A stretch of DNA of 64,000 nucleotides from Caldicellulosiruptor saccharolyticus DSM 8903 (lineage in GTDB: Bacteria; Bacillota; Thermoanaerobacteria; Caldicellulosiruptorales; Caldicellulosiruptoraceae): positions 909,501 to 973,500 of the forward strand of contig NC_009437.1 of the NCBI RefSeq assembly GCF_000016545.1, read 5' to 3'. Under the pieces are notes generated by a model. The model had not been told where the DNA came from and ran no database searches. It was given only the letters and a program-made list of their open reading frames with translations. Both the position numbers and the translations under genes were made by a program. Shown here in pieces: positions 1 to 16,525 of the stretch. Position 1 is the first letter of the stretch; each line of letters starts with the position of its first letter.

Positions 1-1356
1 GAATATCAACGAATAAATATCCTCATCAGTTAAATTATTTTTAGACTTAATTATTCCTTTTTCTAATGCTTTCTCCAATATCTTCTCTCTGTCAATTCCC
101 CTCCCATCATCTTGAATTGTTATTAGTACCTCTGAATTAGTACTTTTTGCGTGAATATAAAGATTTCCCTCTTCAGCTTTCCCCTGTTTTCTTCTCTCAT
201 CAGGTGTTTCTATCCCATGGTCTATGGCATTTCTTACTAAGTGTATGAGTGGGTCTGTTATGTGCTCAATCATCATTCTGTCAAGTTCAGTTTCTTCTCC
301 AGTAACGTAAACAGTTACTTTCTTATGGAGCTTTTCAGACACTTCAAGAGCGACCCTTCTTAACCTTTGGAATGTGTTCGAGAGAGACACCATTCGCATA
401 GACATTGCTATTTCTTGGAGTTCGTTTATTACTCTTGAAACTTTTGAGTAAGATTTTTTAAAGTCCTCCGAAGCAATTCCAAGTGATTCTACACTTAGAA
501 CCAATCCTGAAAAGTTGATTAAAAGTTCGCCTATTAAGTCTATTATTTTGTCAACTTTTTCAACATTAACGTTGATAATTTTTTGCCCGAGATTGGTATT
601 TCCACCTCCCAATTTGGAACCATTTTGAGAGAACTCTTCGTTAGACATGTTATCTGCAAATTCAATTTCTATATTAGATAAATAAAGAACATCATCAAAA
701 AGCTGAAAAACTTCATCTTTTTCAAGTACAGTTTCTATTACTAATTCGAATCCCTTTTTTTGTATTACATCTGCTGTGTTTGGGTCATTTTGTATATTCT
801 TTGGAGTATAATCAATAATATCACCCACATCTTTTAACTTCCAAATAACACCATAAGCTCTTACATTTTCCATGCCTGCTCCATCTTCAAAAAATACTTT
901 AATACGATACTTCTTTTTAGTTTTTTCAATATTGTCCACAGAGGCTGTGTTTTGATTTTCATTGATATTTTCTATTAACTGATCGATTAATTTCTGAGCA
1001 GTGCGGGAAGCAGAAAAATCTGTAGTTTCAATTGAGTCAATGTCGAGATTTAAGCAGTCTATAACTTTTAAAAAACAATTGATAAGCTGGTCAACAATAT
1101 TAGGTGTTATATGTATTGAGTTTAATTTTACAAATAAATCCTCTGCCTTGTGGCATACTTGGCTTATATCTGAATATTTCATAGCTGCTGATGATCCTTT
1201 GAGTGTATGGAAAATGCGCATAATGTCATTGTTTACATTTTTGAGTATTAACTTTCTTTCTTTAAGACAAATGAATATGTTTTCTAAGTCGTTAAGAAGT
1301 TGTTTTGACTCCGCAATGAAAATTTCAAATAGTGGGTCTTTAAACTTTTCTTCCAT
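1..1356 (-). CDS. cheA: Chemotaxis histidine kinase CheA, C-terminus beyond window edge
   Basis: Autophosphorylating kinase of a chemosensory array. The reverse strand reads open from an ATG at 1356 (another ATG at 1359) to the window edge. An Hpt domain is visible near residue 50 as HTLKGSSAAM, with the phosphoacceptor His. After a linker and dimerisation helices comes the ATPase N-box DPLIHLVRNAIDHG around nt 200-250, then the residues that precede the usual PGFST segment. The rest of the ATPase domain and the CheW-like domain lie outside. An AAGGTG site precedes the start. It lies 30 bp downstream of the HD-GYP gene, so both are probably one transcript under the c-di-GMP riboswitch. This is a complete-type CheA with its own Hpt, unlike the CheA at 7746. 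Confidence 0.9.
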   Translation of the reverse strand, partial: MEEKFKDPLFEIFIAESKQLLNDLENIFICLKERKLILKNVNNDIMRIFHTLKGSSAAMKYSDISQVCHKAEDLFVKLNSIHITPNIVDQLINCFLKVIDCLNLDIDSIETTDFSASRTAQKLIDQLIENINENQNTASVDNIEKTKKKYRIKVFFEDGAGMENVRAYGVIWKLKDVGDIIDYTPKNIQNDPNTADVIQKKGFELVIETVLEKDEVFQLFDDVLYLSNIEIEFADNMSNEEFSQNGSKLGGGNTNLGQKIINVNVEKVDKIIDLIGELLINFSGLVLSVESLGIASEDFKKSYSKVSRVINELQEIAMSMRMVSLSNTFQRLRRVALEVSEKLHKKVTVYVTGEETELDRMMIEHITDPLIHLVRNAIDHGIETPDERRKQGKAEEGNLYIHAKSTNSEVLITIQDDGRGIDREKILEKALEKGIIKSKNNLTDEDIYSLIF

Positions 1357-1388
1357 CATATCACCTTCTTGCCAGAAAATTCACTGGT

Positions 1389-4011: not shown

Positions 4012-4087
4012 TTAAAGAAACAACAACTTTATGGTATTATATAATAGAAAGCAAAAAAATCTAAGTAACAAAGGAGGTATGAGAGTG

Positions 4088-6040
4088 ATGGAGCTGTCTA
4101 AAATGAAAACGCCGAGAAATCCAGCAAAAGTTAGTTCCCAAGTTAATGAGGCCAACCAATTTCAAAATTTCAATGAGGTTCAAGGTAACAATCCTGGGGT
4201 TTTTGATGCAACAAAGAGGAAAGAAAGAAGAGACGAACTGAGGAGAAATACAATCATTGAAAGACTTGCTGCAACAACGAGCGAGACTCAGGCGGCGGTG
4301 TCGCAGGCTACGCGTAATGTAAATGAGTTACAGGTAGCAGTTCAAGAGATTGCTGCCTCAGCGCAAGAGGCATCCAAAGCAGCTCAAGAATCATTAAGAG
4401 CAATTCAAGAGATTGAAAAGGTAGCGAAGGTTGCGGATGAGAGGACAGGCGAGCTTTTAAATTCCATTACGAACCTTCAAGCACTTATTCAAAGTGTATC
4501 AGATGAGATTGAAGAGATGATCCGTGGGATTGAAGCAGCTGCTCAGGTTTCACTTGAGTCTGCTGAGAACGTTTTACAGCTTGAAAAACAAGCAAATGAA
4601 ATTGGTACTACAGTTCAGGCTGTAATGGAGGTAGCTGACCAGACAAATCTTTTGGCTCTCAATGCAGCAATTGAGGCTGCGAGAGCAGGTAAACATGGTC
4701 GAGGCTTTGCAGTAGTGGCAGATGAGGTAAGAAGCTTAGCGGAAACAACCAACAAAGCTGCTATAGAGATTCAAAGCATTATTGAGGAAATTCAAAGGGA
4801 TGTAAATGTAGTAGCAGAAGACATCAGGGGTGTTGGCACACTTGTGAGAGGAGAAGCTGAAAAAGCAAAAGGTGTTACAGAAGATTTGAGGAAGATAGAG
4901 GATTCAATTAATACGATTGTTGAAGCTATGAAAGAGATAAAGGTTTTGTCCCGCAATATGATGAACGCATCCAGCGAGGTCAGAGGCGGAAGCCAGCAGA
5001 TTGCCGCAGCAGCGGAAGAGGCGGCAGCAGCTACTGAGGAATCAAATGCATCGTTGATTGAGCAGACTAAAGCATTAAATGAAATTAACAACGCGATGAC
5101 CATGCTTGCTGAAATGGCAGATGAACTAAAATCCACCTCTATCACTCAAAAGAATGCAGAGGAACTTGCAGCGGCATCAGCTGAGCTTGCTGCTATGGTA
5201 GAACAGTCCCATAAAGCCAGCTATCAGATTTCTTCAGCACTTGAGCAGATAATGCAAGCGGCAGAAGAACAGGCTGCTGCATGTGAAGAGTCACAGAGAG
5301 CAACAGAGAATCTCAAAAATATGCAGAAAGACATAGTTGAAAGATTAGAAAACACAACGAAACTAGCAAGAGAGCTTCAAGAGATTTTGAGCAAGAATAA
5401 GAAGGATGTTGAAGGTTTAATTGAAGGGGTTGCTCAATCTGTTGAGAAAAACAAACAGTCGTTAGAAAGTGTGAGAGTATTGGAGAAAAGGATAAGAAAT
5501 ATTGAAAAGATAATAGATACTATTTCCAATGTCACAACAAAAATAGATTTACTGTCATTGAATGGTTCTATTGAGGCAGCGCGCTCTGGAAAATATGGAA
5601 AAGGATTCGCCGTTGTGGCAGGAGACATAAAACAGCTTGCTCAGCAGTCAAGTGACGCAATAGGAAATATAAAAGAAATGGTTAGAAACATTAATGACCA
5701 AGTAAGAATTGTATATGAAGATGTAGAAACTGCTGTAAAAACGGCGATTGAGGAAAATGAAAAAGCCCAAAAAATAACTTTTTCGCTTGAGAGAGTGAGA
5801 GGAGCTACTGAAAAAGTTATTACAGAAGGTAATCAACTGCTTGCAAGTGCCCAGGATGCAGAAAGTGCCTTGACTCAGATAGCAGCTGGAACAGTACAGA
5901 TTGCAAAGGGTGCAGAAGAAGCATCGCAAGCGGCCCAGAGTGCAGCAACTCAAGCTCAGGAACAGCTCAAGGCAATTTCCCAAATTGCCGAGGCTACACA
6001 AGAGATTGCAAATCTTGCAGAGGAGCTTAAAAATGTTTGA
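4088..6040 (+). CDS. Soluble methyl-accepting chemotaxis protein with two signalling tips
   Basis: Chemoreceptor-like protein of about 650 residues without any membrane segment. It is almost all heptad-patterned helix, rich in Ala, Glu and Gln. Two separate receptor hairpin tips are visible. One is near residue 190 ([10 protein letters not shown], then [16 protein letters not shown]). The other is near residue 487 ([10 protein letters not shown], then [16 protein letters not shown]). Ordinary MCPs have one tip, which binds CheA and CheW. AAGGAGG at 4071-4077 favours GTG 4085 or ATG 4088; an upstream frame from 4031 lacks a better SD. First gene of the chemosensory operon, preceded by the A48 tract. 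Likely a cytoplasmic input or array-organising protein; the signal is unknown. Confidence 0.9.
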
Positions 6041-6093
6041 TTAGTTTATAAAAAAATTGAAGCAACCTTTTTAAGAAAGGAGGAAAGATTTAA

Positions 6094-6633
6094 ATGATTG
6101 ATGAAGAAAGAGTAAAATTATTAAAAGCAACAGAGGAGGAATTTGAAGAAGAAGATGAGTTAACAGACGAGAGACAACTTGTGATTTTTAAATTAGGGGA
6201 AGAAGAATACGGTGTTGATATAATGCAGGTCAAAGAGATTATTAGAACAACAAATATAACAAAGATACCACAAGTACCATCTTTTGTAGAAGGGATAATA
6301 AGTCTAAGAGGTGAGATATTACCTATAATAGATATGCGTAAAAAATTTAGTTTACCTGAGAAAGAAAAAACGAGACAAACACGAATTCTTGTTATAAATC
6401 TTGATAACATGACCATAGGTGGAATTGTTGACGAAGTAACAGAAGTGCTTAGAATTCCAAATGATGCTATAACTCCACCACCACCTGTAATTAAAGGAGT
6501 TAATACAGAGTATTTACAGGGGGTTGGGCAGATTAACGGAAGAATAATAATTCTTCTTGACATGTCCAAGATATTGACCTCTAACGAGATAATACAAATT
6601 GAGGAATTGAAAGAAGAACTGATGAACAAGTAA
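6094..6633 (+). CDS. cheW: CheW coupling protein
   Basis: Scaffold that links receptors to CheA in the array. The 179-residue protein has a 30-residue acidic N-terminal extension, then a full CheW domain: QLVIFKLGEEEYGVDIMQV, the VKEIIR segment, IPQVPSFVEGIISLRG and ILPIIDMRKKF, and a second half with GGIVDEVTEV. The SD AAAGGAGG precedes the ATG. It sits 53 bp after the double-tip receptor gene. Confidence 0.95.
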   Translation: MIDEERVKLLKATEEEFEEEDELTDERQLVIFKLGEEEYGVDIMQVKEIIRTTNITKIPQVPSFVEGIISLRGEILPIIDMRKKFSLPEKEKTRQTRILVINLDNMTIGGIVDEVTEVLRIPNDAITPPPPVIKGVNTEYLQGVGQINGRIIILLDMSKILTSNEIIQIEELKEELMNK

Positions 6634-6686
6634 AGATACCATTAGTTTGTGCAAAATATATTCAAAAATAGGGGTTTGAACTTAGG

Positions 6687-7718
6687 ATGGTCAGAGTTTT
6701 GGTGGTAGAAGATTCTCCACTTATGAGAAGGGTTTTAATTAGAATATTACAAAAAAGCCCTTTTATAAAGGTAATAGACTATGCGACAAATGGCGAGGAG
6801 GCAATCGAAAAGGTTGCCTCCTTGCGTCCTAATGTAGTAACAATGGATGTTGAAATGCCTGTTTTAAATGGCATTGAGGCACTAGAAAAAATAATGCAAA
6901 CATGCCCAACGCCTGTTGTAATGATATCAACTCTTACCCAAAAGAGTGCTGAAGTTACTCTGAAGGCTTTGAGTTTGGGTGCAGTGGATTTTATTCCCAA
7001 GCCATCTAATTATTCAAGTGAGCTTGAAAACGTTGAAAATGAAATTATAACTAAAGTTTTGAATGCAGCAAAAGCAAATGTGTTTTTTAAAAAAGGTAAT
7101 TCTTCAGCAAAACGAATAACCTCACAACTAACAAAGAAACCGTTAGTAAGACCACATGCAGTATTTATAGGGGTTTCGACAGGTGGCCCTAAAACATTGG
7201 GTGAAATAATTCCATATATAAAGCCTGACATAGGTGTGCCAATATTTATTGTGCAACACATGCCACCAAATTTTACAAAGCAGCTTGCTGTGACTCTTTC
7301 GGAAAGGAGTTCACTTTTTATTAAAGAAGCTGAAAAAGGTGAGATTATAAAACCTAATACAGTTTACATAGCACCAGGTGGCAAACAAATGGAGATAAAT
7401 GTTATTTCTAACAAAGCTTTTATTAACATAGTGGATGGACCACCTGACTTGATCTATAAGCCTTCTGTTGATTATGTGGGCTTTTCGCTTGCACAATATT
7501 ACAAAGACAGGCTTGTAGCAATAATGCTTACCGGTATGGGTAATGATGGTGCAAAAGCGTTTGCGTTTATCAAAAAGCTTGGTGGTTTTATAATAGCGGA
7601 AGATCAATCAACCGCGGTTATATTTGGCATGCCCAAGGCGGTAATTGACCAAGGTATTGCTAACTTGATTTTGCCTTCGACAAGTATCGCAGATACTATA
7701 AATTCCATATTTGCATAA
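6687..7718 (+). CDS. cheB: CheB protein-glutamate methylesterase/response regulator
   Basis: Demethylates receptor glutamates when phosphorylated. A receiver domain occupies residues 1-125 with phosphoacceptor D54 (VTMDVEMP) and the K of FIPKPS. After a linker, the catalytic domain at about 155-343 shows the triad S164 (GVSTGGPKT), H191 (VQHMPPNF) and D287 (LTGMGNDGAKA). The length of 343 is normal for CheB. With CheR encoded at 10914, the operon has a full adaptation pair, so its receptors are probably methylated. Confidence 0.96.
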   Translation: MVRVLVVEDSPLMRRVLIRILQKSPFIKVIDYATNGEEAIEKVASLRPNVVTMDVEMPVLNGIEALEKIMQTCPTPVVMISTLTQKSAEVTLKALSLGAVDFIPKPSNYSSELENVENEIITKVLNAAKANVFFKKGNSSAKRITSQLTKKPLVRPHAVFIGVSTGGPKTLGEIIPYIKPDIGVPIFIVQHMPPNFTKQLAVTLSERSSLFIKEAEKGEIIKPNTVYIAPGGKQMEINVISNKAFINIVDGPPDLIYKPSVDYVGFSLAQYYKDRLVAIMLTGMGNDGAKAFAFIKKLGGFIIAEDQSTAVIFGMPKAVIDQGIANLILPSTSIADTINSIFA

Positions 7719-7745
7719 AATAGATTATCGAGGCAGGGTTGAGAG

Positions 7746-9398
7746 ATGAATTATGAAGAAAGAAAGTTTTTGATGGAACTTTTGGACGAGGGGAAAAAGA
7801 TATATAAGATAGAATTTCTACTAAAGCCCGAAGGGGAGTTCAAAGCACCTACAGTAGCAAAGATATATAAAAATCTGAGTATAAAATACAATATTTTTCT
7901 CACAATTCCAGATATGCAACAAGAACATATAGGCGAGGATATAAGTGAATACTTATTCTTTGTTGAAGGAGATATTGACATAAATACTTTGCGACAAGAT
8001 GTGGAAGAGGCTTGTAAAGATGAGGAAGTTATTGACATTTTCTTTATTCAAAAGCTATTGAAAGAAGATTTAGAGGTTACTGAAGTAATAGGAACAAATG
8101 ATATTCAGCAAAAAGAAGAAATTCAAACTTATTCCAATACAGAGCAAATAAAAGAGTTGAGAACAAAAGAAAATGAACAAGAGAACAAAAAAATTGATTC
8201 TGTGAGAATTGATATTTACAAATTAAATAATCTTACAAATCTTGCAGGTGAACTTATTACTTGTAAATCTCAACTAAGTCAAATATTGAATGGTTTTAAA
8301 GAGATAAACGTAAAAGATAAAGAGATTAGTAATTTGATTTCGAACCTTGAAAAAGGAATTTTAAGGTTAGAAAGGATTTCTTTTGAGCTTCAGGAAGGAA
8401 TAACAAGTTTGAGACTTTTACCCATAAAGAATGTATTTAGAAAACTTCCGAGAATTGTACGAGAAGTTGCTCAAAAAGAAGATAAAGAGGTAGAACTAAT
8501 TATAAAAGGTGAGGAAACAGAGATTGATAAACTTATATTAGAAAAGATTACTGACCCTTTAGTACATATAGTAAGAAATTGTGTAAATCATGGAATTGAA
8601 AAGCCAGAAGAGAGGATTGCCAAGGGCAAAAAACCTCAAGGGAGAATTACAATAGAAGCCTATGCAGAGGGTGAGCATATTTATATCTCCATTACGGATG
8701 ATGGAAGAGGTATTGACATAGATAAAATAAAAGCAAAAGCTTTGGAAAAGGGTATTGTTACAAGTGATGAGCTTCTGAGTATGTCTGAAAAAGATGTAAT
8801 TGACCTGATTTTCTTACCAGGTTTCTCTACAGCTGATAGAGTTGATGATATTGCTGGCAGAGGAGTTGGAATGGACGTTGTCAAAAAGAATATTGCAGAG
8901 CTAAAGGGTGAAATAAAGGTTGAGACACAAAAAGATAAAGGTACAAGCTTTTTAATAGTTATCCCACTCACTGTTGCTATAATAAAGACATTATTGGTTT
9001 TGGCCGGTGAAAGATTGTATCTTCTACCGCTTGAAAAAATAATTGAGACAGTAAAGATTAATAAAAACTTGATAAAATCAATTACAGGTAAAAAAATATA
9101 CAGCATCAAAGGAGAAATAATTCCGTTCTTTAGTCTTAATGAAATACTCGGAAATGAAGAAGATGAAGATACCAGAAATTACTATTTTGGGATAATAGTG
9201 AGATATAACAACAGCAAAGTAGGAATAATAGTGGACAAGCTGATAGGTGAATATGATGTTGTTGTAAAGCCTTTAGACCAATTTGTAGGGAATATAAAAG
9301 GAATAGTTGGTTCTACAATCTTGGGTGATGGCAGGGTTGTCTTGTTGCTTGAACCAGAACAATTGATTGGAAGAATTGTTTGCAAAGCTAAACAATGA
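7746..9398 (+). CDS. cheA: CheA-type histidine kinase lacking the Hpt (P1) domain
   Basis: Kinase core of the array. The 550-residue protein opens with a P2-like domain (LLDEGKKIYKIEFLLKPEG) and has no HxxKG phosphotransfer motif anywhere. From about 155 come dimerisation helices (NLAGELITCKSQL). Then comes the ATPase domain with N-box DPLVHIVRNCVNHG, G1 DDGRGID, PGFSTADRV and G2 GRGVGMDVV. A CheW-like domain ends the protein. The usual CheA is about 650-700 residues, and the missing part corresponds to P1. A stand-alone Hpt fused to CheW is encoded 2.8 kb downstream (12176), so phosphorylation is probably in trans. Its stop overlaps the HEAT gene start by 4 bp. Confidence 0.93.
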   Translation: MNYEERKFLMELLDEGKKIYKIEFLLKPEGEFKAPTVAKIYKNLSIKYNIFLTIPDMQQEHIGEDISEYLFFVEGDIDINTLRQDVEEACKDEEVIDIFFIQKLLKEDLEVTEVIGTNDIQQKEEIQTYSNTEQIKELRTKENEQENKKIDSVRIDIYKLNNLTNLAGELITCKSQLSQILNGFKEINVKDKEISNLISNLEKGILRLERISFELQEGITSLRLLPIKNVFRKLPRIVREVAQKEDKEVELIIKGEETEIDKLILEKITDPLVHIVRNCVNHGIEKPEERIAKGKKPQGRITIEAYAEGEHIYISITDDGRGIDIDKIKAKALEKGIVTSDELLSMSEKDVIDLIFLPGFSTADRVDDIAGRGVGMDVVKKNIAELKGEIKVETQKDKGTSFLIVIPLTVAIIKTLLVLAGERLYLLPLEKIIETVKINKNLIKSITGKKIYSIKGEIIPFFSLNEILGNEEDEDTRNYYFGIIVRYNNSKVGIIVDKLIGEYDVVVKPLDQFVGNIKGIVGSTILGDGRVVLLLEPEQLIGRIVCKAKQ

Positions 9399-10897
9399 GA
9401 AGGAGTGAAAAACCAAGGATGAATTCCGCTGAAGAATTACTTAATATGCTAAGCTCAGATGACTATGTGATTCAAAAAGGAGCGATAGAGAATGCATTAC
9501 ATTTTAAAGAGCCTGTAGTAATTGATAAATTGATAGAACTTTTTATAAGCACTAATAACAAAATGATAGAAGAGCATATTGCAAAAGCATTAAAACAAAT
9601 AGGAGGAGAATATACAGTCGAGAAACTATTAAGGCTTTTAGACCATGATGAAGCAAGAGTAAGGACTTTTGCATACGAGGTCTTGTGCGAAATAGGATCA
9701 CATAATCTTCACGCTATCATAGCTGAAGCAGAAAATCCGGATAAGAACGTTAGAAAATTTATAGTTGATATATTAGGCGCTTTAAAAAACAAAGATGCAG
9801 TGCCAGCTTTACTAAAAAGGTTATCAGACGATGATGTAAATGTTATTCAAGGTGCGGTTGAAGCATTGGGGAACATCGGAGATGTTGAGGCACTAAAGAA
9901 AGTAGTGGAGTTTTTACCTTCGGCTCATTTGTGGGTGCAGTGGACAATCATTGAGAGCATAAAAAAAGTAAACGATGGTCAATTAGTTTCACAAGTTTTG
10001 AATCTGCCATGGGAAATTGAAAATGTCATATTTGATAGTATATTTGATATGGTAAGGGAAAGTGGTAATGTTGAAAATGTAGAGGATGCAATAAAGTTAT
10101 ATTTAAAACTTTCAACTCAGTTAAGGATAAAAGTGTTAGATACTATACACTCTATTTATCTAAGATCTGATAAGAGGAAACTTGAAGGTATTCTTACTGA
10201 TAGCAAGCTCTTTGATGAGATAAAAGGTATATTAATATATGGAACAAATTTACAAAAATATACAATCCTTAAATATCTTGGAGAGATAGAAGATGAAGAT
10301 TTTATTAACTTTATTAAAAACAAAGTGTTCGATGAAACGATTGAGATGAATATTATAAAGCTCTATTATACAGCGAATACTTTGAAAAAAAGAGAGTTGA
10401 TCAAGGTGTTCAAATATTTTAATAGACCAAAATTAGTGGAGCACATTAAAGAAATATTTAAAGGTGATGACAATATATTGAAGCTAAGTGCTTTGAGGAT
10501 TATGAGGAGAAATGGTATCAGGGAGGTAGCAGATATGTTACCTGAGGTTATGAAAGAAGAAGAACTTTTATCTGAGGTATTGAAGACTATCATTGAGCTT
10601 GATTTAAAGGAGCTATTCGAACAAGTTTACGACGAATATTTTAAAGCTGAAAGTGAAGATAAAAAACTTTTGATGCTTGAGTGTATGGTTGAACTAAGAC
10701 CAGATGATCCCAAAGTTATGGCTCTTATTAAAGATGAACTTACAAATGAATCGTTGGATGACAGCCAGATACTTAAGCTGTTACAGTTAATAGGAAAGAC
10801 TAACAATATGGAAGTATTTAGGGCACAACTTGAGTACTTGGTTAACCACCCTAATATGGAAGTTTCTATCGAAGCTCAAAGCCTTTTAACTAAATAG
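9395..10897 (+). CDS. HEAT-repeat protein of the chemosensory operon
   Basis: A 500-residue alpha-solenoid. HEAT/PBS-lyase-type repeats are clearest at residues 40-190, for example DKNVRKFIVDILGALKNKDA and VIQGAVEALGNIGDVEALKK. The rest is helical, with weaker repeats. There is no catalytic motif, signal peptide or membrane segment. The start overlaps the cheA stop (ATGA); an ATG at 9419 is an alternative. Translational coupling to cheA suggests it binds CheA or an array partner as a scaffold. That role is inference. Confidence 0.8.
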   Translation: MRRSEKPRMNSAEELLNMLSSDDYVIQKGAIENALHFKEPVVIDKLIELFISTNNKMIEEHIAKALKQIGGEYTVEKLLRLLDHDEARVRTFAYEVLCEIGSHNLHAIIAEAENPDKNVRKFIVDILGALKNKDAVPALLKRLSDDDVNVIQGAVEALGNIGDVEALKKVVEFLPSAHLWVQWTIIESIKKVNDGQLVSQVLNLPWEIENVIFDSIFDMVRESGNVENVEDAIKLYLKLSTQLRIKVLDTIHSIYLRSDKRKLEGILTDSKLFDEIKGILIYGTNLQKYTILKYLGEIEDEDFINFIKNKVFDETIEMNIIKLYYTANTLKKRELIKVFKYFNRPKLVEHIKEIFKGDDNILKLSALRIMRRNGIREVADMLPEVMKEEELLSEVLKTIIELDLKELFEQVYDEYFKAESEDKKLLMLECMVELRPDDPKVMALIKDELTNESLDDSQILKLLQLIGKTNNMEVFRAQLEYLVNHPNMEVSIEAQSLLTK

Positions 10898-10913
10898 CTC
10901 GAGGAGGAAAAAT

Positions 10914-11762
10914 ATGTTAACAGAAATTGTTCTTAACACTCATGAATGGAATACTGTGAGAGACTTTATATACCAAACAACAGGCCTATATTTTTCAGAC
11001 GACAAAAAGAGCTATATTCAAAAGAGATTAAAAATTGCAATGGATAATTTAGGTATAGCTGATTTTTGGGGATATTTAAAAAAACTCGAAACAGATAAAA
11101 ATGTTTTCAACAGGTTGTTAGAGCTAATTACAACGAATGAAACCTATTTTTTTAGAGACCTGGCCCAGCTTGATATGTTTTCAAAGGATGTTTTGCCTGA
11201 GCTTTTGAATAGGAAAGCTGCCCAAAAAGGTGACTTTAGATTAAAAATCTGGAGTGCAGGGTGCTCAACTGGTGAAGAACCATATACAATTGCAATCATT
11301 TTAAAAGAACGACTTGAGTATTTTGATGATTGGGATATTGAGATATTGGGAAGTGACATTTCAGAAAGAGTATTAAAGTTTGCTCAAGAGGCTGTGTATA
11401 TGCCAAGGTCTTTAAAGGATGTTCCAGAGTATATTCGGTTAAAATATTTTGAATATAATCCTTCACAGAAGGTGTATAAGCTCAAGGATAAAATAAAGAG
11501 ATTGGTCACGTTCAGATATTTAAATCTATATGACGAACATAAAATGAGGTTGATGAGAAACTATGATGTGATATTTTGCAGAAACGTCCTTATTTACTTT
11601 GATGAAGAATCCAGAAGAAAAGTGGTTGAATATTTCTATGATGCATTGAATCCTGGTGGTTATATCTTTTTGGGACATTCCGAGAGTATATTGCGAATTA
11701 CAAAAGCGTTTGAGATTGTTTATTTTGAGAATAATATAGCTTTTAGAAAACCTATAGCTTAA
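10914..11762 (+). CDS. cheR: CheR chemoreceptor methyltransferase
   Basis: Transfers methyl groups from S-adenosylmethionine to receptor glutamates. The 282-residue protein has the N-terminal helical domain, then TTNETYFFRD, the SAM-binding WSAGCSTGEEPYTIAI, a conserved VIFCRNVLIYFDEE and the C-terminal GGYIFLGHSES. The length is typical. The SD GAGGAGG is 7 bp before the ATG. Confidence 0.96.
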   Translation: MLTEIVLNTHEWNTVRDFIYQTTGLYFSDDKKSYIQKRLKIAMDNLGIADFWGYLKKLETDKNVFNRLLELITTNETYFFRDLAQLDMFSKDVLPELLNRKAAQKGDFRLKIWSAGCSTGEEPYTIAIILKERLEYFDDWDIEILGSDISERVLKFAQEAVYMPRSLKDVPEYIRLKYFEYNPSQKVYKLKDKIKRLVTFRYLNLYDEHKMRLMRNYDVIFCRNVLIYFDEESRRKVVEYFYDALNPGGYIFLGHSESILRITKAFEIVYFENNIAFRKPIA

Positions 11763-11788
11763 AAAATTATGGAGGGTGGAAATGAATT

Positions 11789-12160
11789 ATGCCAAAGATT
11801 TTAGTGGTTGATGATTCGCCTGTTGTAAAGAAAATTGTTACAACAACTCTTGTAAAAAAGGGATTTGAAGTAAGAGAAGCTTTAGACGGTGTGGCTGCGC
11901 TAGAGGTTCTACTAAATGAAAAAATTGATCTTGTTATTACAGACCTAAATATGCCAAAGATGGATGGCTTGCAGCTAACACGAGAAATAAGAAAAAATCC
12001 TGCTTATAAGAGAATTCCTGTTATAATGCTAACCACAAATCCTTCAGAGGAGCAAAAAGCCTTGGAGGCAGGGGCAAATCTGTATTTGAAAAAACCTGTC
12101 ACAAGTGAGGAATTGATTTCACATGTTCAGAAATTTTTGGGCATTGAAGTAAAGAGTTAA
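11789..12160 (+). CDS. cheY: CheY-like single-domain response regulator
   Basis: A 123-residue receiver domain only. It shows the acidic pocket VVDDS at residues 6-10, phosphoacceptor D52 (VITDLNMPKMDG), the conserved T of IMLTT and the K of LKKPV. It is followed 15 bp later by the Hpt-CheW gene, its probable phosphodonor partner along with CheA. Whether it acts on a flagellar motor, pili or another output cannot be told from this window. Confidence 0.94.
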   Translation: MPKILVVDDSPVVKKIVTTTLVKKGFEVREALDGVAALEVLLNEKIDLVITDLNMPKMDGLQLTREIRKNPAYKRIPVIMLTTNPSEEQKALEAGANLYLKKPVTSEELISHVQKFLGIEVKS

Positions 12161-12175
12161 GAAGGTGGGATTATT

Positions 12176-13180
12176 ATGTCTGATCAATTGTTTAGTAGTT
12201 CAGAACTTGAAGAGCTAAAAAAAGAGTTTGTTGTTGAGACGTATGAACATCTTGAGAACGCACAAGATGCTCTTTTGCAGCTTGAGAAGGACCCAGGCAA
12301 TTACGAAATCCTAAACTTTCTATTCAGGGAGATTCATTCAATAAAGGGTGGAGCAAATTTTTTGGGGTTGCAGGATATAATTAATGTATCTCACGAAATG
12401 GAGAGCGTCTTAGACAAGATGCGAAATTATGAGATATATCCTTCGAGTGATGTTGTTAATACTATTTTTGAAGGTATTGATATTATTAAGAAGTTAGTAA
12501 ATAATCTGGAGAATAATACAGAAGATAATATTGATCACATTTCCTATATAGAACGGTTAAGATTGATAAATAGCTTAAATCAACCACCAATTGAAAATGA
12601 TAATAGAAAATTAGAAAACAAAGAAGGCTTTAAGGCGTTTGGGGAATTTCAAACTCCAGAAATGTTAACAGATCCTAAAAGGAAAGATAGTGAATTTGAA
12701 AATTCTATCTACAGCGGGAATGATAATAGTATTGATGAAAACTCTTACTTAATGATTGTTTCGTTCGAATATGGAAATGTTACATATGGAATTGAAGTTG
12801 ACTTTGTAAAGGAGATAGTAAAACCAACAGACATTACATCTATACCTTTTGCGAATGACCATATAATGGGCCTTATGAACTTGCGGGGAGATGTTGTAAC
12901 AGTAGTTGATTTTGGAAAACTCTTGGGAGTTAAAAAAAGTGAAGCAGTTCATCATAAAGTTTTGATAATTAATTACCGTAATTTAACGTTTGGACTTTAT
13001 GTTGATAATGTTAAAGAGGTGATAAGCATACTTCCTGAGAATATTAAAGAACCAAATGTGGATCTTATTTCTTTAAGTGATATTTTAAAAGGAGTAGTTG
13101 AGAAAAATGGTGAGTTTATTCAGTTAATAGATCTTCAACAATTAGTAGACAAGTCAAGAGAAGATGCGGAGTTGGTATAA
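12176..13180 (+). CDS. Hpt-CheW fusion protein (detached CheA P1 module)
   Basis: Residues 1-125 form an Hpt domain with phosphoacceptor H54 in FREIHSIKGGANFLG. Residues about 190-325 form a CheW domain (MIVSFEYGNVTYGIEVDFV, MGLMNLRGDVVTVVDFGKLL). A polar linker joins them. There is no kinase domain. It supplies what the CheA at 7746 lacks, and the CheW domain would dock it in the same array. By domain logic CheA phosphorylates H54 in trans, and the CheY proteins at 11789 and 14200 take the phosphate. Split CheA proteins are known in Rhodobacter; the Hpt-CheW arrangement here is a distinct layout. Confidence 0.9.
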   Translation: MSDQLFSSSELEELKKEFVVETYEHLENAQDALLQLEKDPGNYEILNFLFREIHSIKGGANFLGLQDIINVSHEMESVLDKMRNYEIYPSSDVVNTIFEGIDIIKKLVNNLENNTEDNIDHISYIERLRLINSLNQPPIENDNRKLENKEGFKAFGEFQTPEMLTDPKRKDSEFENSIYSGNDNSIDENSYLMIVSFEYGNVTYGIEVDFVKEIVKPTDITSIPFANDHIMGLMNLRGDVVTVVDFGKLLGVKKSEAVHHKVLIINYRNLTFGLYVDNVKEVISILPENIKEPNVDLISLSDILKGVVEKNGEFIQLIDLQQLVDKSREDAELV

Positions 13181-14173
13181 ATGGAATGGTATCTAATTGT
13201 GATTATTGGGTTGTTAGTGATAACCATTTGTGAAGGATTATTGCTTGTAAAAAGGTCAAATGAAATAAATAAAATGATTGAATTTGTAAAATCGGAGAAG
13301 TATACAAATAGTATATCAGATACTTTTATTAGTGCCTATAAAAACAGAGTTGAATTAATAGAACAGAATTTTAAAGAGGAAATACTAAAGGTAAAAACTG
13401 AAAATGATTTCTTAAAAGAGGAATTAACAAAAATAAAAAAATTATCCTATGAGAAAGAAAGAGAGTTATTGGATCAATTAAAAACTGTTTTTGAGTCAAT
13501 TAAAGAATTAAAAGAGGCATTTAAGATAGTAGTTGATGAAATTAATAAGTCTTTGTTTACAAATTTAGAAGATATGAATCAACGGTCAAATAAAATCGGG
13601 GAGGATATTAAAAAAGGTAAAGAGCAAGTATCTAAGTCAGGAGAGGATATAAACGAACTATTAACCACAATACAAGGGTTATCAGAAAATGTTAGGAGTT
13701 TGTCAACACATATAGAGAGTATAAGCAAAATTACACAGATTATACACAATATAGTAAAAGAAATTTCTTTTATATCATTAAACGCTCAAATTGAGGCACG
13801 TAAGATAGAGAATTCTACAACGTTCAGCTTATTAGCATCTGAGATGAGAAGGCTTGCTGAAAGTGGCAAACAAAGCCTCAAAGAAGCAAATGATATTATT
13901 ACGAATATTATTACGAATATTAATTTAAATTGTGAACAAATAAGTGGCTTTGTTGACAAGGTTGAAGAGTTGAAAAAAAGGACTCATAAAATAACTGATG
14001 AGTTTGAATCTGTTTACCAGCTTGTTAGTTCTGTGTTGGATTATCAGGCTAAACTTTCAGAGCAAATAAAACAACATTTTGCAGGTATTCAAGAGATGGT
14101 CAGCATATTAGAGAATGTTTACAATGAAGGTATTAAGATTGTAGAAAATGCATCATTGATGGAAAAACAATAG
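13181..14173 (+). CDS. Membrane-anchored MCP-like protein with degenerate signalling tip
   Basis: The 330-residue protein has one N-terminal membrane segment (residues 4-22, LIVIIGLLVITICEGLLLV). Coiled coil follows to the end. A short receptor hairpin has the tip ISLNAQIEARKIE, then a degraded form of the [16 protein letters not shown] segment (LLASEMRRLAESG). There is no periplasmic sensor domain. The ATG directly abuts the TAA of the Hpt-CheW gene, so the two are probably translationally coupled. It may tether the array to the membrane or act as a minimal receptor. Confidence 0.8.
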   Translation: MEWYLIVIIGLLVITICEGLLLVKRSNEINKMIEFVKSEKYTNSISDTFISAYKNRVELIEQNFKEEILKVKTENDFLKEELTKIKKLSYEKERELLDQLKTVFESIKELKEAFKIVVDEINKSLFTNLEDMNQRSNKIGEDIKKGKEQVSKSGEDINELLTTIQGLSENVRSLSTHIESISKITQIIHNIVKEISFISLNAQIEARKIENSTTFSLLASEMRRLAESGKQSLKEANDIITNIITNINLNCEQISGFVDKVEELKKRTHKITDEFESVYQLVSSVLDYQAKLSEQIKQHFAGIQEMVSILENVYNEGIKIVENASLMEKQ

Positions 14174-14199
14174 AAGCTTTTTATGAAGTGAGGTTTGAT

Positions 14200-14658
14200 A
14201 TGAGAAAAGTAACTTTCCTTATTGTAGATGACTCACCTATGTGGAGAAAGGTAATAAAAAGATTTATTGAAGAAAAACTTGGTGGCAATATAGTTGGAGA
14301 GGCAAAGGATGGGATTGAAGCAATAGTGCTTTATAAAAAGTTAAAGCCTGATATCGTGACGATGGACATCGAAATGCCAAATTTAGACGGCATAAAGGCA
14401 CTTGAGGAGATATTAAATTTTGACAAGGATGCAAAAGTAATTATGATAAGCTCAAAAGGAGAAGAAGATGTAGTAAGAAAGGCTCTTTTAAAAGGTGCTC
14501 AGGATTTTATACGGAAAGATTTAAAACTTGAGAAGTGGGTAAAGAGATTTGAGAAGGTTATTAGAGAAATTAAAGGGAAAAAAGAGAATATGACATATAA
14601 TGTGTTTTCTGTTATTATCAGTTATATTAACAAACTTAAAAACAATAATAAGTCTTAA
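14200..14658 (+). CDS. CheY-like response regulator
   Basis: Receiver domain of 152 residues: VDDSP pocket, phosphoacceptor D56 (VTMDIEMPNLDG), S of MISSK, K of FIRKD, and about 25 extra basic residues at the C-terminus. The closest visible relative is the CheB receiver rather than the CheY at 11789. The start is ATG 14200 behind GTGAGG; a GTG 12 bp upstream is an alternative. It overlaps no gene but ends 25 bp before the GGDEF/EAL gene, to which it may pass the signal. Confidence 0.9.
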   Translation: MRKVTFLIVDDSPMWRKVIKRFIEEKLGGNIVGEAKDGIEAIVLYKKLKPDIVTMDIEMPNLDGIKALEEILNFDKDAKVIMISSKGEEDVVRKALLKGAQDFIRKDLKLEKWVKRFEKVIREIKGKKENMTYNVFSVIISYINKLKNNNKS

Positions 14659-14683
14659 ACAGCAAACAACAGGTGATGGTTAT

Positions 14684-16525
14684 ATGAGTTTTGGAAATGA
14701 GAAAGGTCAAGATATAATTCATAGAAAAGAGGTAGAGTTTTTTGTAAAAAATTTGAAGGATTATTTCAGTAACATAAATAAGTATGTAGTGATTTTATGG
14801 GATGAAGAAGGAATTATTTTGGAATTTAAAGAGAATGGTGGCAACTTACTGGGCTATACACCTGAGCAGATTGAAGGAAAAAAATGGCCAGATATCTTAA
14901 CGGACGGCAAAGACAAAGAACAAACTACAGAAATTAACAAAAAATTAGTAAATAGTAAGATAGTGAGATACTATATAAATTCCATAAAAGATGTAAATGG
15001 TACAAGCAAAATATTTTTATGGTGTAACTTGAAATTAGAGAACGTTCAAAGTGACAAGAAAATTTTTCTTTCAGTAGGTTTTAATTTGGATTCAATAGAC
15101 AATCTAAAAGAAAAAACTGATGAAAGTAAATTTGAGCTTGATACCCTCAATGAAAAAAAAGAAAACCTCGAATTCAAAGTAACTAAGGACGATTTAATTT
15201 TAAAGCAGAAAGATGATACAATAAGAGATTACAAGAGCAAATTAGAATTTTTAGCTTTTTATGATGAACTTACTGGATTGCCAAATAAAAACTCACTTAT
15301 TCGATGGTTGAATTTAAAGGTCAGTCAAATGGACTGTATTGACACATATTTGATATTTCTTGAAGTAAGAGATTTAGAAAAATTAAATGTCACGTATGGA
15401 TATGATTTAGTTGATGAATTAATTATACATATTAGCAAAAGAATAAAGGATATAGCAGGGGAAGGGAACAAAGCTTTTAAAATAGGATTTGATAGATTCG
15501 CAATAATTTGTAAAAGCGAGAACATTTCTGATTTTATTGAAAGGATGCTATCACAACTTTTGCTACCCTACAATGTGAATGGAAATTTAATAAGAGTAAA
15601 TTTCAATATAGGAGCTGCTCAAATTGAAAATTCAAATGAAGCCGCAGCAAACCTTATGAGAAGATGTGACTTAGCTTTAATCAAAGCGAAGGAGGAAGGA
15701 TTAAATGAATATGTGATATTTAAGCCGTCGATAGAAATTCAAACTTTAAAAGAGGGAATACTTGAAAGAGAACTTCGAAATGGAATAGAGTTAAATGAGT
15801 TTATTGTATTTTATCAACCGTTTGTAAAATTAGAAAATGATAAAATTTGTGGTTTTGAAGCTCTACTAAGATGGTATTATCTAAAGTCAGTATTTGTATC
15901 GCCTTTAGAATTTATTCCAGTGGCTGAAAAGTATGGCTTGATTATTGATTTAGGGAATATGGTATTAAAACAATCGTTGAAAGCTGGCAAAATTTTAAAG
16001 AAATATTATGATGATGAGTTTACAATTTCTATAAATATTTCTCCGAAACAATTTATTGACAAAAGATTTGTCAAAAATACAATTGAAATTCTGGAAAATG
16101 AAAAATTGCAGGACATACGGTTACGGTTTGAAATAACTGAGAAAGTGGCAATTGAAAATATTGACTATACAATCAGGATTATGAATGAATTTAAAAAATA
16201 CAATGTAACGTTTGCATTAGATGATTTTGGCGTGGAGTATTCGTCCTTAAACTATTTAAGGAAGTTACCAATAGAAGCTGTTAAAATTGATAAATCATTT
16301 GTTCAAGATATAAATGACCATGATACATATTTCATAGTTGAAACAATTGTTAAGCTTTGCAAAAAACTAAATTTAAAAACTGTTATAGAAGGAGTTGAAA
16401 CACAAAGGCAATATCAGATAATAAAAGAACTTGGTTGTGACTATGCACAAGGTTATTTTATAGCTAAGCCATTACCTATCAATGAATTGATAAATCTTGT
16501 CGGAAAATATAAAATATTGGAGTAG
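14684..16525 (+). CDS. PAS-GGDEF(degenerate)-EAL c-di-GMP phosphodiesterase
   Basis: A PAS-like sensor lies at residues 25-125 (LLGYTPEQIEGKKWPDIL), then a coiled coil. The GGDEF domain has YDELTGLPNK intact, but its active site reads GFDRF instead of GGDEF, so diguanylate cyclase activity is unlikely. The EAL domain is intact: FEALLRW, NISPKQF, EITE, DDFG, KIDKSF, EGVET and QGYF. Expected activity is cleavage of c-di-GMP to pGpG, perhaps with GTP as allosteric ligand of the GGDEF relic. ATG 14684 has an AGGTGAT SD; an upstream frame from 14600 overlaps the cheY gene and is less likely. Last gene of the operon. Confidence 0.9.
   Translation: MSFGNEKGQDIIHRKEVEFFVKNLKDYFSNINKYVVILWDEEGIILEFKENGGNLLGYTPEQIEGKKWPDILTDGKDKEQTTEINKKLVNSKIVRYYINSIKDVNGTSKIFLWCNLKLENVQSDKKIFLSVGFNLDSIDNLKEKTDESKFELDTLNEKKENLEFKVTKDDLILKQKDDTIRDYKSKLEFLAFYDELTGLPNKNSLIRWLNLKVSQMDCIDTYLIFLEVRDLEKLNVTYGYDLVDELIIHISKRIKDIAGEGNKAFKIGFDRFAIICKSENISDFIERMLSQLLLPYNVNGNLIRVNFNIGAAQIENSNEAAANLMRRCDLALIKAKEEGLNEYVIFKPSIEIQTLKEGILERELRNGIELNEFIVFYQPFVKLENDKICGFEALLRWYYLKSVFVSPLEFIPVAEKYGLIIDLGNMVLKQSLKAGKILKKYYDDEFTISINISPKQFIDKRFVKNTIEILENEKLQDIRLRFEITEKVAIENIDYTIRIMNEFKKYNVTFALDDFGVEYSSLNYLRKLPIEAVKIDKSFVQDINDHDTYFIVETIVKLCKKLNLKTVIEGVETQRQYQIIKELGCDYAQGYFIAKPLPINELINLVGKYKILE

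Follow-up and report, generated by a model that had tools for sequence, protein, structure and literature searches.

In Rhodobacter sphaeroides, CheA4 transfers phosphate to H51 of CheA3, from which it is passed on to CheY and CheB (PMC2817712). CheA3 has been read as a relict, that is, a complete CheA whose core lost its function, and a liberated histidine phosphotransfer (Hpt) domain was reported to be functional (Berry et al. 2023, PMC10782961). In one passage based on a domain search, Hamer et al. 2010 (PMC2829493) listed both a P1-P5 and a P3-P4-P5 architecture for Caldicellulosiruptor saccharolyticus, as well as a CheA3-like protein in Anaerocellum thermophilum. Here we analyzed a 64,000-nucleotide stretch of C. 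saccharolyticus DSM 8903 (NC_009437.1, positions 909,501 to 973,500; hereafter the window), from a genome comprising one contig of 2,970,275 bases. The window contains a chemotaxis operon encoding a CheA without an Hpt domain (short CheA) and a fusion of an Hpt to the coupling protein CheW (Hpt-CheW), which are very likely the P3-P4-P5 and P1-P5 proteins of Hamer et al. 2010. Judging from the sequences, we consider it highly probable that the two form a bipartite CheA, in which the CheA core would phosphorylate H54 of Hpt-CheW in trans.

The short CheA has the parts of a kinase core and no substrate domain. Pfam identified H-kinase_dim, HATPase_c, and CheW domains (residues 152-221, 270-409, and 416-542) and no Hpt at E<=0.1. 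A motif scan of the protein found no HxxKG, and no Hpt-like profile match was obtained for its N-terminus. The claim of the original prediction that this CheA lacks both an Hpt and the motif therefore stood. The best matches in PDB were to the Thermotoga CheA core (E 1e-90), and segments of the N, G1, F, and G2 boxes were conserved across 7 CheA orthologs; the kinase site is intact. The N-terminal 110 residues are not an Hpt and appear, with moderate confidence, to be P2-like. AlphaFold2 folded residues 19-104 as strand-helix-strand-strand-helix-strand (predicted local distance difference test, pLDDT, about 43-79). The N-terminus scored 25.8 against a P2 profile, compared to a maximum of 18.5 in 30 column shuffles and 9-14 for other profiles, and the ortholog in genome G349 (locus L082) has a Pfam P2 above the cut-off. 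These results also support the P2-like domain that had been proposed for this protein.

The Hpt missing from the CheA is found on the coupling protein. In Hpt-CheW, Pfam identified an Hpt at residues 13-89 (45.4 bits, cut-off 24.6) and a CheW domain at residues 194-326 (104.5 bits), and the HSIKG motif places the predicted phosphorylation site at H54, as originally proposed. The Hpt matched the Thermotoga CheA P1 domain (phmmer, E 3e-22) and was modelled by AlphaFold as a helical bundle (pLDDT about 80-93); the model of the CheW half was poor, with a shallow alignment. Residues H54, K57, G58, H73, and E76 were invariant in all eight Hpt-CheW proteins, with a spacing of H, K, and E that we take to be that of the CheA P1 network. 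The linker between the two domains spans about residues 134-191. The ratio of nonsynonymous to synonymous substitution rates (dN/dS) was about 0.13-0.20 in most pairs, by which measure Hpt-CheW is under purifying selection. Only three Hpt domains were found genome-wide, and the other two belong to a CheA on the minus strand that lies partly inside the window (1-1359) and to a CheA at genome position 1445123. Hpt-CheW is thus the only Hpt of the operon, as had been claimed.

A survey of 398 genomes of the phylum found Hpt-CheW in only 8, of which 6 belong to this genus, which agrees with the earlier view that such a carrier is uncommon. A co-occurrence survey, proposed along with the original prediction, found the pair kept together. 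The full operon was present with identical gene order in 6 of the 12 genomes of the genus, five genomes were without both short CheA and Hpt-CheW, and one (G003) had Hpt-CheW alone. The same pair was found in the same operon in G349, which belongs to another family, at identities of 35% and 26%. In no genome (the 12 of the genus and G349) did we find a short CheA without Hpt-CheW. G003 has lost CheW through CheY1, beside a transposase-like gene, and keeps Hpt-CheW, the short receptor, CheY2, and the GGDEF-EAL protein. A transposase-like open reading frame (ORF; IS110-like by eye) stands in place of the lost genes (L063:8379-11280) and the double-tip receptor is truncated, making G003 a natural case of kinase loss in which Hpt-CheW is left without its kinase. 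In G150 (L138), one of the 8 genomes with the fusion, Hpt-CheW lies beside a complete CheA that has two CheW domains and a receiver. A single-protein scan of genome contigs found nothing, and an alignment scan yielded 17 loci with no clear Hpt-CheW/short-CheA pair, using patterns from the N-terminal Hpt region only and so not exhaustive. At a Deltaproteobacterial locus (L125:2452-6941), a gene for an Hpt protein of 937 aa precedes one for a P3-P4-P5 CheA of 515 aa, which may be another split or a frameshift.

We constructed a tree of 99 CheW-fold domains, including 27 P5 domains and leaving out R. sphaeroides CheA3; the domain is short and the search was a quick one. All 27 P5 domains split from all coupling-protein domains (99% support in the Shimodaira-Hasegawa-like approximate likelihood ratio test, SH-aLRT), and all Hpt-CheW domains fell on the coupling-protein side. 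Since the CheW domain of the fusion sorts with coupling proteins and not with CheA P5, Hpt-CheW resembles a CheW to which an Hpt was added. The PDB matches of the CheW domain were CheW chains, not P5, and the domain keeps the NLRG segment; the LRG motif discriminates only partially (102 of 154 CheW versus 12 of 48 P5). A tree of Hpt domains did not place the source of the Hpt, the domain being too short.

In the mechanism that we infer, the short CheA would dimerize via P3, bind ATP in P4, and enter the array via P5, with no histidine of its own. Hpt-CheW would join the same array via its CheW domain, with the flexible linker of ~60 residues keeping the Hpt within reach of P4, which would phosphorylate H54 in trans. 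We propose this step because the phosphorylation of CheA3 by CheA4 is a direct precedent. The phosphate would then move from H54 to CheY1, CheY2, and CheB. The docking site for CheY would be the P2-like domain of the short CheA, which would put the dock and the phosphodonor on different polypeptides. The original prediction of a split kinase with its Hpt in trans on a coupling protein gained support from the co-occurrence, the synteny, the intact catalytic site, and the intact Hpt network, while it had missed both the earlier listing by Hamer et al. 2010 and the fact that CheA3 also combines an Hpt with a CheW-like domain. A more speculative extension, which we think possible but on balance the less probable outcome, is that Hpt-CheW occupies CheW positions in the ring. 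The number and placement of phosphodonors would then be set by the composition of the array and not by the CheA dimer and, with the CheY dock (P2) on CheA, transfer to docked CheY would occur only where both co-assemble.

Some observations weigh against this bipartite kinase. The P2 assignment depends on the topology of the predicted fold and on a profile match that is weak. The complete CheA beside Hpt-CheW in G150 means that the fusion need not always be the sole Hpt. In G003, Hpt-CheW has outlasted the insertion/deletion that removed the kinase, and the 5 nonsynonymous and 3 synonymous changes since that loss do not tell decay from function.

Hpt-CheW could instead be phosphorylated mainly by another CheA (window 1-1359 complement or genome 1445123), linking two pathways. 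Both of these CheAs are encoded in the source genome, isolated Hpts can accept phosphate from CheAs other than their own, and the retention of Hpt-CheW without the short CheA in G003 would fit. However, G001 keeps the short CheA/Hpt-CheW pair but for the CheA at window 1-1359 it has no ortholog (its only two Hpts are in a 667-aa CheA and Hpt-CheW), so that CheA, judged by gene content, is not the conserved partner of Hpt-CheW. The CheA at 1445123 has a counterpart in all 12 genomes of the genus, whereas Hpt-CheW is present in 7. Phosphorylation by another CheA would also leave the short CheA without a substrate, although it is conserved with intact motifs, and we consider this explanation improbable. 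We regard it as still less probable that the Hpt drains CheY-P, as a phosphate sink or a module for reverse transfer, instead of acting as a forward donor. Extra Hpts can serve as sinks in other chemotaxis systems, and the complete CheA accompanying Hpt-CheW in G150 would suit such a role, but here the fusion carries the only Hpt of an operon whose CheA has none, and a sink would need another donor. Database entries for CheAs lacking an Hpt sometimes reflect faulty assembly (Berry et al. 2023, PMC10782961), yet the chance that the CheA is decayed or mis-annotated, with its N-terminal Hpt lost and its likeness to a split system accidental, is negligible given the same architecture in six genomes, mostly single-contig, and in a distant family, and a dN/dS of about 0.1.

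The operon with the putative bipartite kinase belongs to a broader class. Relatives of the two-tip receptor (4031-6040) were found in 42 of the 398 genomes of the phylum (E<=1e-45), and their loci share a recurring operon encoding the double-tip receptor, in most cases a protein with three CheW domains (triple-CheW), CheB, a HEAT protein, CheR, CheY, and CheA. The class, with a soluble two-tip receptor, recurs in many families of the phylum (L072-L120), and SAR324 loci L128 and L132 also have operons with triple-CheW and HEAT proteins. We found no paper describing this operon class. The window operon matches it, with the soluble two-tip receptor, CheB, HEAT, CheR, and CheY in the same order, but has no triple-CheW protein; it has a single CheW and Hpt-CheW instead, as does L082. 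ORFs of ~500 aa with CheW matches in the relatives were rejected as Hpt-less CheAs, being the triple-CheW proteins.

Three states of CheA were observed in the class. The first is a complete CheA; the second is an Hpt-P2 protein plus a P3-P4-P5 protein, the Hpt gene lying immediately downstream; and the third, in the window operon and G349, combines a single CheW, a CheA with a P2 or P2-like N-terminus, and Hpt-CheW. Each of the 22 loci whose CheA lacks an Hpt, among them the probable assembly break L117, had a separate Hpt gene, and 26 of the 27 loci with a complete CheA had none, although these loci are phylogenetically nested and reflect a few independent events. L117 was treated as a frameshift or assembly break, as it is near-identical to the unsplit L092 and adjoins a broken receptor gene. 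Four of the P3-P4-P5 proteins (L073, L074, L081, and L083) still resemble an Hpt weakly at the N-terminus, with D, N, or S in the position of the histidine, and these N-termini are likely relicts.

On the tree of CheA cores, the Hpt-P2 splits formed one group (support 80/85). Constraining this genus and G349 together was not rejected (approximately unbiased test, p-AU 0.39), while a single origin of all CheA splits as one clade was (p-AU 2.5e-8). The concatenated tree of receptor, CheB, and CheR united this genus, G349, and G308 at 100% SH-aLRT; no CheA or Hpt-CheW was found at the double-tip receptor locus of G308. Because of these topology tests and the concatenated tree, the pair of Hpt-CheW and short CheA probably had a single origin, independent of that of the Hpt-P2 split, although the CheA and Hpt-CheW of G349 are long branches of unsure exact placement. 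In that event, most likely a single one, a CheW would have acquired an Hpt and the CheA encoded alongside it in the operon would have lost its own.

The genes from 4031 to 16525 are codirectional with intergenic gaps of -59 to 53 bases, and this shared direction and close spacing are consistent with one operon (Table 1). Scans for promoters and terminators gave matches at chance level only. Pfam confirmed the CheB, CheR, two receiver (CheY) proteins, HEAT protein, and two receptors that had been listed for the operon; the list is now refined by the downstream GGDEF-EAL protein. A self-contained chemosensory array is plausible from this gene content. The GGDEF-EAL protein (14600-16525) at the end of the operon has GFDRF in place of GGDEF and its cyclase half is probably inactive; this suggests an output towards cyclic di-GMP.

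Table 1 Genes, domains, and predicted phosphorylation site of the chemotaxis operon (window positions).
Feature	Position	Strand	Basis
Soluble receptor, two MCP signalling tips	4031..6040	+	two Pfam MCPsignal stretches; no hydrophobic segment
CheW, single domain	6094..6633	+	Pfam
CheB	6687..7718	+	Pfam
Hpt-less CheA (550 aa): P2-like, P3, P4, P5	7746..9398	+	Pfam; PDB matches; conserved box segments
P2-like domain of CheA (residues 19-104)	7800..8057	+	AlphaFold2 topology; profile match; moderate evidence
P3 dimerisation domain of CheA	8199..8414	+	Pfam H-kinase_dim; profile
P4 ATPase domain of CheA	8418..8978	+	Pfam HATPase_c; profile
P5 domain of CheA	8988..9365	+	clusters with P5 of other CheAs in CheW-domain tree
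HEAT-repeat protein	9395..10897	+	Pfam; orthologs in equivalent position of related operons
CheR	10914..11762	+	Pfam
CheY-like receiver 1	11789..12160	+	Pfam; 93-97% identity within genus
Hpt-CheW fusion (334 aa)	12176..13180	+	Pfam; kept in 7 genomes of genus and in G349
Hpt domain of Hpt-CheW (residues 13-108)	12212..12499	+	Pfam; phmmer; predicted helical bundle
H54 codon, predicted phosphorylation site	12335..12337	+	HSIKG motif
CheW domain of Hpt-CheW (residues 194-326)	12755..13153	+	Pfam; CheW side of tree
Short receptor, divergent tip, one N-terminal hydrophobic segment	13181..14173	+	MCPsignal 53 bits; hydrophobicity peak at residue 5
CheY-like receiver 2	14188..14658	+	Pfam
PAS-GGDEF-EAL protein, operon end	14600..16525	+	Pfam; 14600 is start of longest ORF

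The passage of Hamer et al. 2010 (PMC2829493) contains no analysis of operon, ancestry, co-occurrence, or CheW versus P5. What is new here is the operon-level pairing, the second family, the CheW ancestry, the evidence that the neighbouring CheA is not the conserved partner, and the second, separate split in the operon class. Within this class, CheA has been dismantled by at least two further, separate routes, each time with the Hpt kept nearby in trans. An Hpt on a coupling protein would free the ratio of kinase to Hpt from the CheA dimer. Hpt-CheW is also a natural construct for asking if co-assembly in the array alone suffices for phosphotransfer from kinase to Hpt, a question for which artificially liberated P1 domains are the usual tool.

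The CheW-CheR-like protein of Treponema denticola (PMC7666581) is likewise a coupling protein with an extra domain and joins CheA and CheW as the third component of their ring, but its CheR-like domain is structural and not a phosphodonor. In the bipartite CheA of Berry et al. 2023 (PMC10782961), the Hpt has a gene of its own, apart from the rest of CheA in the same operon, as here, whereas here it is fused to CheW; a nearer example is the Hpt-P2 plus P3-P4-P5 arrangement in other genera of the phylum, which is of separate origin. In R. sphaeroides CheA3/CheA4, too, the P3-P4-P5 core lacks an Hpt, a second protein starts with an Hpt and ends in a CheW-fold domain, and both are encoded together with soluble receptors in a single operon (PMC2817712, PMC10782961). 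However, about 794 residues separate the Hpt from P5 in CheA3, and they hold degenerate CheA domains as well as a CheY6-P phosphatase (PMC10782961), compared to the short linker of Hpt-CheW. The terminal domain of Hpt-CheW groups with coupling proteins and not as a CheA P5 remnant (CheA3 itself being outside the tree), and the P2-like domain of the short CheA is a further difference. The two systems are thus probably alike in how they work and assembled from different parts.

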